A program made the position numbers and the translations under genes. The notes beneath the pieces were generated by a model, which was not told the DNA's origin, ran no database searches, and saw nothing but the letters and a program-made list of their open reading frames with translations. This document shows positions 17,600 to 63,154 of a stretch of DNA of 64,000 bases, in pieces (position 1 is the stretch's first letter; each line of letters begins with the position of its first letter). The DNA is from Methanofollis sp. W23 (lineage in GTDB: Archaea; Halobacteriota; Methanomicrobia; Methanomicrobiales; Methanofollaceae). The stretch covers positions 1,116,001-1,180,000 of the forward strand of contig NZ_JAGGMN010000001.1 in the NCBI RefSeq assembly GCF_017875325.1, in the 5' to 3' direction.

Positions 17600-17772
17600 A
17601 GCTTTGTAGAAACCCTCACTTCTTCTCGGTGCAAAGGTGGCAAGGGCGACTCAATCGCCTTCCCACACAATCACACCAGGGGCGAGTGCCGCCTGCACCC
17701 CCAGGACTACGATGGGGCCGGGACGGCACGCCCCCCGTCGAAGAGAACCATCAAGAGGGGTTCTACAGAGCC
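17600..17772. mobile_element. MITE-like element, about 173 bp
   Basis: The left end (A)GCTTTGTAGAAACCCTCAC and right end GGTTCTACAGAGCC are inverted copies. If the first G of the left end was lost, the flanking octamers AAAATTCA and GATATTCA match at six of eight positions. Inside, GCCTTCCCAC pairs with the GGGACGGC segment around a GGGGCGAGTGCCGCC hairpin. Confidence 0.65.
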
Positions 17773-39001: not shown

Positions 39002-39228
39002 GGCTCTGTAGAAACCCTCACAAATTCTTAGTGTGACCGTAACTCACGCCTTCCCATATATATCGCGCCGGGGGCTCCGCCCCCGGACCCCAGGGGCGAA
39101 GATAGGGCGGGGAAGGCATAATAGACAAATATTAGGGGTTTCAGTCCTCGTCCTATCGTATTGCGGGGGGACCTGGGGGCGGCCAACCCCCCGCCAAAGA
39201 TAACTGTCCTGAGGAATTCTACAGAGCC
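39002..39228. mobile_element. MITE-like element, 227 bp, IS6-like ends
   Basis: The ends GGCTCTGTAGAA (39002-39013) and TTCTACAGAGCC (39217-39228) are perfect 12-base inverted repeats. Flanking octamers GGAAATTC (38994-39001) and AGAAATTC (39229-39236) differ at one position, so an 8-base target duplication is very likely. Inside are a CGCCTTCCCATATATATCGCG to GGCGGGGAAGGC arm pair around GCCGGGGGCTCCGCCCCCGG and a second hairpin with GCGGGGGGACCTGGGGGC and CCCCCCGCC. It has no coding capacity. Confidence 0.8.
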
Positions 39229-59909: not shown

Positions 59910-60790
59910 GGCTTTGTAGAAACCTTCACCTCTTGTGTAGGTGAGACATGTGTCACCCGCCTTCCTACTACCCCTTTGGCCAGGGGCAAGTGCCGCCGTA
60001 CTCGACCTATCGTGTGGCGGGGGCGTACTGCCACACGATAGAGAGAGGACTTCAAATCTCTTTTCTGAGCTCTGTAGAATTGCTCATGAGGCGAGGCCTC
60101 AAGAATATGGGATAAAAATTTTCGTCATGTACTCTCTCTTTTCAAGACAGGAGAACTGGTGGAGACTGTGTTCACTGTGCCGCCCCCACCTATCTTCAGT
60201 CTGTGGGGGTCCAGGGGTGCAACTCCGCCGACGCGAGATGACGGTGGAATTCGATGATCAGAGGCGGCAGATCCATCAGAAGAATTTTTTTATCCTCTGA
60301 GGTCCTCCCAAAACTCTTCAGTCCTCCCCTCTCAGAAGATAGCGGTGGATGTGGAGAAAATATCCTCCCCTTTTCGTTGCGGGGTCCATGCATTGCCTTC
60401 CCCCACCCCCGCGCCGGGGGCGCTGCCCCCGGACCCCTGGGATGAAGATGGGGTGGGAAGGCAGAGTGATGATCGTGAAGACGGGATGCGGACTCCTGCC
60501 ACTCTTCATCAACGGGGGTCGGGGGGGCGGCACTCGCGCTCATAATTGCGAAGGGGTTCTCCCTGTGTTTTGAGGGGCAGTCTCTCGGAGACCTGCGAGT
60601 CTTCTCACACTCTCCTGGTACCGCAAAAATCAAAGATCTCTCTCATCAGGAATCTCTCCCCGTGTTTTCAAACTCGCTCTCGCTCTCGCTCGTCCCCTAT
60701 GGAAAAATGAGTGCCGGGAAGGCGGAGTCGAGAGCGTCCCCTCTAATTCCTGCCATACTCTTGTGCGAGAGGGCAGAGGCCTTTTTTCCC
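59910..60790. repeat. composite repeat-family region in convergent gap
   Basis: GGCTTTGTAGAAACC (59910 onward) opens a copy whose first 130 bases match the inverse complement of 62950-63089, including CCGCCTTCCTAC, CCCTTTGGCC and GACCTATCGTGTGGCGGGGG. A second left end, (A)GCTCTGTAGAATTGCTCATGAGG, lies at 60068. The block 60301-60410 is the inverse of 11409-11515. A GCCTTCCCCCACC to GGTGGGAAGGC pair around GGGGGCGCTGCCCCCGG follows at 60397-60465. AT-rich inserts near 60630-60690 resemble 47236-47305. No gene is seen to 60829. Confidence 0.55.
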
Positions 60791-62784: not shown

Positions 62785-62926
62785 GTGGTGGGGCGGCACG
62801 ATAACTCTCTGGGGGGTGGAGGCGCCCTCGAGCTCATTCTGTACATCAGGAGTTGTGCCCGGGCAGCGTCGGGTGGTCACTCCTTCCTTTTTTCCATGGG
62901 ATTTTAGAGAGTCAAGGGCTTTGTAG

Positions 62927-63089
62927 AAATGCTCTGGGTGGGGCTCTCTGGCGGGGGGCGTGCGCACCCCGCACCCCCGCCACACGATAATAGGTCAAGG
63001 ACGGCGGCACTCGCCCCCGGCCAAAGGGGTAGGAAGGCGGATGACAGACACGCATTCTCCCCACGATACGTGAGGGTTTCTACAGAGCC
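62927..63089. mobile_element. MITE-like element, 163 bp, with perfect 8-bp target duplication
   Basis: The ends GGCTTTGTAGAAA and TTTCTACAGAGCC are inverted repeats with one mismatch. The octamer GAGTCAAG occurs exactly at 62919-62926 and 63090-63097, directly abutting both ends, the mark of transposition with an 8-base duplication. Inside are a GGCGGGGGGCGTGCG/CGCACCCCGC and CCCCCGCC pairing and the CGGCACTCGCCCCCGGCC to CCTTTGGCC module, shared inverted with 59910. No protein is encoded. Confidence 0.85.
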
Positions 63090-63154
63090 GAGTCAAGGAT
63101 GCAGAACCTGCCCGGCGCAAGGTTGATGGAGGTTTGCAGAGCACATGGGGAGTA

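Follow-up and report, generated by a model that had tools for sequence, protein, structure and literature searches.

An abundant MITE family with 8-bp target duplications and IS5-type ends in Methanofollis sp. W23

Insertion sequences of the ISH1 group of the IS5 family, such as ISTth7 of Thermus, are 900-1150 bp long, carry one ORF and produce an 8-bp target duplication (PMC6352166). For archaea, the MITE catalogue of Kamoun et al. (2013) lists IS5-linked elements of Methanosarcina that measure 140-252 bp and occur in 5-24 copies, and it foresees orphan MITEs whose IS has been lost (PMC3852290). A further comparison is offered by Chunjie, a MITE of Geobacter uraniireducens that measures 235 bp at full length and also exists as derivatives of 178-235 bp and as numerous partial, decayed copies (PMC10969869).

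The window analyzed here, a 64-kb stretch of the Methanofollis sp. W23 genome, contains a 173-bp element (62917..63089) that separates an EamA transporter gene upstream from an oxidoreductase-like gene downstream, the latter having no Pfam match in the part that lies inside the window. On the plus strand, positions 62909-63097 read GAGTCAAG, the 173-bp element, and GAGTCAAG again, the left and right target-site duplications (to which no strand applies) occupying 62909..62916 and 63090..63097. The preliminary description had rightly placed an exact octamer flush with both ends, but its length of 163 bp and its start at 62919 were each off by 10, the correct values being 173 bp and 62909. Its reading of the ends as inverted also holds, with GGCTTTGTAGAAA and TTTCTACAGAGCC complementary at 12 of 13 positions. 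In family orientation the element lies on the minus strand, with the ACCCTCAC end first: the terminal inverted repeat at 63077..63089 (minus strand, GGCTCTGTAGAAA) is the family left end (..ACCCTCAC) and reads TTTCTACAGAGCC in the window, and that at 62917..62929 (plus strand, GGCTTTGTAGAAA) is the family right end, of the ..GAAATCCTCTTG type, here GAAATGCTCTGG. No coding capacity was recognized in the 173 bp, and there is no transposase inside. Short (<500 bp), non-coding, bounded by inverted termini and multicopy, with 65 related stretches found in its own genome when it was used as a query, the element has the features of a MITE.

The family exceeds 100 copies in this genome by a wide margin and accounts for much of its intergenic repeat landscape. 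The exact 13-bp end GGCTYTGTAGAAW occurs 322 times in the 2.9-Mb genome (148 forward, 174 reverse), as compared to none for a reversed-pattern control; allowing up to two mismatches, the end motif has 19 matches in the window against 0.49 expected. Full-length copies span 227-235 bp around a consensus of about 231 bp, which begins with GGCTCTGTAGAAACCCTCAC and ends with GGCTCTGTAGAAATCCTCTTGATG (written as reverse complement), the inverted ends being about 18 bp long (GGCTCTGTAGAAAYCCTC). A near-full-length sibling of 227 bp lies in the window at 39002..39228 (plus strand), flanked by a target duplication matching at 7 of 8 positions (GGAAATTC/AGAAATTC). Of the 12 Methanofollis genomes searched, 10 contain the MITE; the 49 genomes searched from other parts of the order gave no match.

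Relative to the 231-bp consensus, about 60 central bp are absent from the window copy, with the internal-deletion junction at 63012..63013. The junction sequence GGGGGC/AGTGC is common to the window copy, to a truncated sibling with the same deletion and one recognizable end (59910..60023, plus strand), and to the copy at G000:C1:1609273, where the octamer GCTTCCCT is perfectly duplicated; the junction of a 173-bp copy at 17600 is similar. Since copies at unrelated sites have this junction in common, the 173-bp form is an internally deleted derivative that has itself multiplied.

There is also a second end type, GGCTCTGTAGAATNNGGCATGA (or CACCATGA/TTCATGA), which combines either with another end of its own type or with a main end. 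Such combinations bound mosaic elements of 350-625 bp with perfect 8-bp duplications (G000:C1:474273-474628, 713312-713936 and 1609273-1609848). The longest paired elements of the genome (381-1126 bp) contain only chance-looking reading frames, with no convincing transposase ORF.

To characterize the target duplication across the family we sampled 81 facing-end pairs, taken from the window, from loci recovered in our searches and from 40 targeted stretches of the genome. An exact 8-bp direct repeat flanks 23 of the 81 pairs, where 0.40 would be expected from shuffled partners, and octamers matching at 7 or more of 8 positions flank 41 (1.49 expected). The mean identity of the flanks has a single peak, at length 8 (0.681, as against 0.362 for shuffled partners, sd 0.021), and no exact repeats of length 9 to 12 were found among the 81 pairs. 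The constant-length duplication typical of a MITE is thus found here at 8 bp. Taken alone, the repeat of the window copy can also be read as 9 bases (GAGTCAAGG, the element starting with G); we set it at 8, not 9, because the family statistics peak at 8. The duplicated octamers prefer the pattern SWWWWWWS (S-W6-S) and are 71% A+T; GAGTCAAG matches its G....G frame, with a lower A+T content than most. About half of the 81 end pairs lack an octamer repeat; mispaired ends or decay of the copies probably account for some of these cases.

The perfect repeat of the window copy had also been taken to indicate that it is among the youngest, a claim that our sample contradicts. By identity multiplied by coverage the copy ranks 46th of 81, and its nearest sampled neighbor is 79% identical over 83% of the length, while the youngest-looking pairs are 95-99% identical over their full length. 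An exact octamer is no mark of youth in this copy, since such octamers are common in the family (23/81).

Direct evidence for insertion comes from a sibling copy of 121 bp at G000:C1:702973-703093, which has TTAGAATC on both sides. Two relatives, G001 and G004, align through the empty junction at 85-86% identity. Because both cover the site but lack the element, and have one octamer-length stretch there, this copy is shown to have arisen by insertion with duplication, the empty site holding a single target copy. The search covered two stretches outside the window that are rich in perfect-octamer copies, and the clean empty site came from this one copy only, most other spanning matches being related repeats at 70-80%.

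The window locus itself has been remodeled in relatives. Hardly any space separates the two genes in G001 (identity 88% for EamA, 81% for the downstream gene) and G010, and intergenic DNA comparable to that of the window locus is missing; in G004 they lie apart, in altered orientation and with other repeats between them; G007 has them on separate contigs, where the flanks are unrelated. The octamer GAGTCAAG is absent at the locus in all four relatives (G001, G004, G007 and G010), but this does not refute insertion, because the neighboring stretch of about 120 bp is missing there as well. The only likely local effect of the element, as we infer from this arrangement, is the separation of two genes that are close in relatives.

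The stretch from the EamA stop to the left octamer (62785-62908, about 120 bp) has no counterpart in the relatives examined, and the gap between the two genes is enlarged beyond what the MITE explains. In G004 (L068, G004:C1:473000-476500) and G007 (L069, L070) the gene pair is broken or rearranged approximately where the MITE-bearing gap lies in the window, and repeats of the same end type lie near the rearranged locus of G004. Recombination between repeats is a possible cause of both rearrangements.

Searches with PF01609 led to candidate sources of the transposase, elements whose borders bear MITE-type ends. G004 carries an intact IS of 1,008 bp (L074) with a perfect GAACAATC duplication, ends GGCTCTGTAGAATTCCTT/GGCCCTGTAGAAACCCTT and one ORF of about 300 aa, which matches PF01609 and scores 237 bits against the IS5 family transposase model NF033579 (cut-off 140). 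The element thus has an IS5-type DDE transposase, and its length, single ORF and 8-bp duplication are those of the ISH1 group; it is likely an ISH1-like member of the IS5 family, the subgroup being assigned from length and duplication size and not from a tree with an ISH1 reference. A degraded 954-bp relative with a perfect CGAAAATC duplication is found in G002, and elements 941-1,010 bp long that share these ends and are flanked by exact 8-bp repeats are distributed over the order. Between the MITE and the genus elements with TGTAG ends (G004, G002), 15-17 of 18 terminal bases agree, such that the MITE has its termini in common with an autonomous element. The likeness is confined to the ends; these sequences are compatible with descent of the MITE from this particular IS without proving it.

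In G011 (L094, L097, L100) a related IS of 1,007 bp is present in several copies that closely resemble one another, with TGTTG rather than TGTAG ends and exact 8-bp duplications, which suggests recent activity in that species. A 1,488-bp element of G004 (positions 1398-2885 of locus L092, on G004:C1) is bounded at each side by an end of the second type and flanked by a perfect GATAATAT duplication. It encloses a 164-aa PF01609 transposase fragment, so that it may be a carrier or may have arisen when an IS inserted into a repeat.

In the genome of Methanofollis sp. W23 itself, which is 99.7% complete, the cognate transposase had no match. The single PF01609 match is degenerate, with a stop codon, and is flanked by slightly different ends (GGCTCTGTTGAAT). 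The family therefore looks orphaned.

We consider it very probable that the window element is a gene-less MITE inserted by a DDE transposase with an 8-bp duplication, the enzyme having been provided in trans by an IS5-family, ISH1-like source and later lost. In such a scenario, the transposase would have cut the target with an 8-bp stagger between the EamA and oxidoreductase-like genes, so that repair of the staggered cuts would have duplicated GAGTCAAG. An ISH1-like transposase of the IS5 family probably acted in trans, and its subsequent loss from the host lineage would have left an immobile orphan family. A variant of this history, to which we assign a rather low probability, is that the orphan family comprises several recent-looking subfamilies (some copies being 95-99% identical) and was amplified, perhaps still is, by a transposase not encoded in the genome, for example that of an incoming IS or plasmid, its modular ends also bounding the larger mosaics.

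That the family moved by transposition, as the preliminary description proposed, is borne out by the family-wide 8-bp duplication, the empty sites at the sibling copy and the matching full-length IS in sister genomes. The element does fold better than its shuffled versions (z about -3.6, on both strands), as a regulatory or REP-like element spread by recombination or by selection on folding would, the octamer repeat then being a coincidence. A fold is largely expected from the inverted ends anyway, and the octamers lie outside it, varying among copies yet agreeing within each copy at exactly 8 bp. With the empty sites contradicting spread by folding or recombination, with ends that match those of a full-length IS, and with no Rfam covariance model matching at E <= 1, such an origin is scarcely credible. 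Duplications of 8 bp are also produced by the IS6, IS1595 and IS1 families (8-9 bp in IS1), and the ends of IS26 (GGCACTGTTGCAAA) resemble those of the MITE; the MITE might then have been moved by one of these families with 8-bp duplications and GG ends. This we regard as very improbable, given that the genus does contain IS5-family elements bearing exactly these ends and 8-bp repeats. As sources, IS6, IS1595 and IS1 were discarded after searches of all 12 genus genomes with PF13610, PF12762 and PF03400 yielded nothing.

The element, a MITE with a probable IS5-type source, is real but of an ordinary type. In this clean archaeal case, the ends, the length of the duplication and the empty sites tie a very abundant non-autonomous element to a defined source of IS5 (ISH1-like) type. 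Because searches of the host genome did not recover this source, which a sister species retains in intact form, it becomes directly testable whether the transposase was lost once the MITE had amplified.

Compared with the ISH1 group, the likeness rests with the partner IS (1,008 bp, one IS5-family transposase of about 300 aa, exact 8-bp duplication), whereas the window element, at 173 bp, has no transposase. Chunjie, compared by description only, resembles the Methanofollis family in its full-length size, shorter derivatives and decayed copies, but has a bacterial host and fewer copies. The archaeal MITEs of Kamoun et al. belong to the same size class, likewise lack an ORF and resemble their partner IS at the ends only. 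The family described here differs from them in its genus and in a host genome where no partner IS was found, and it stands apart by its clear 8-bp duplication and its far higher copy number, with 322 perfect ends.
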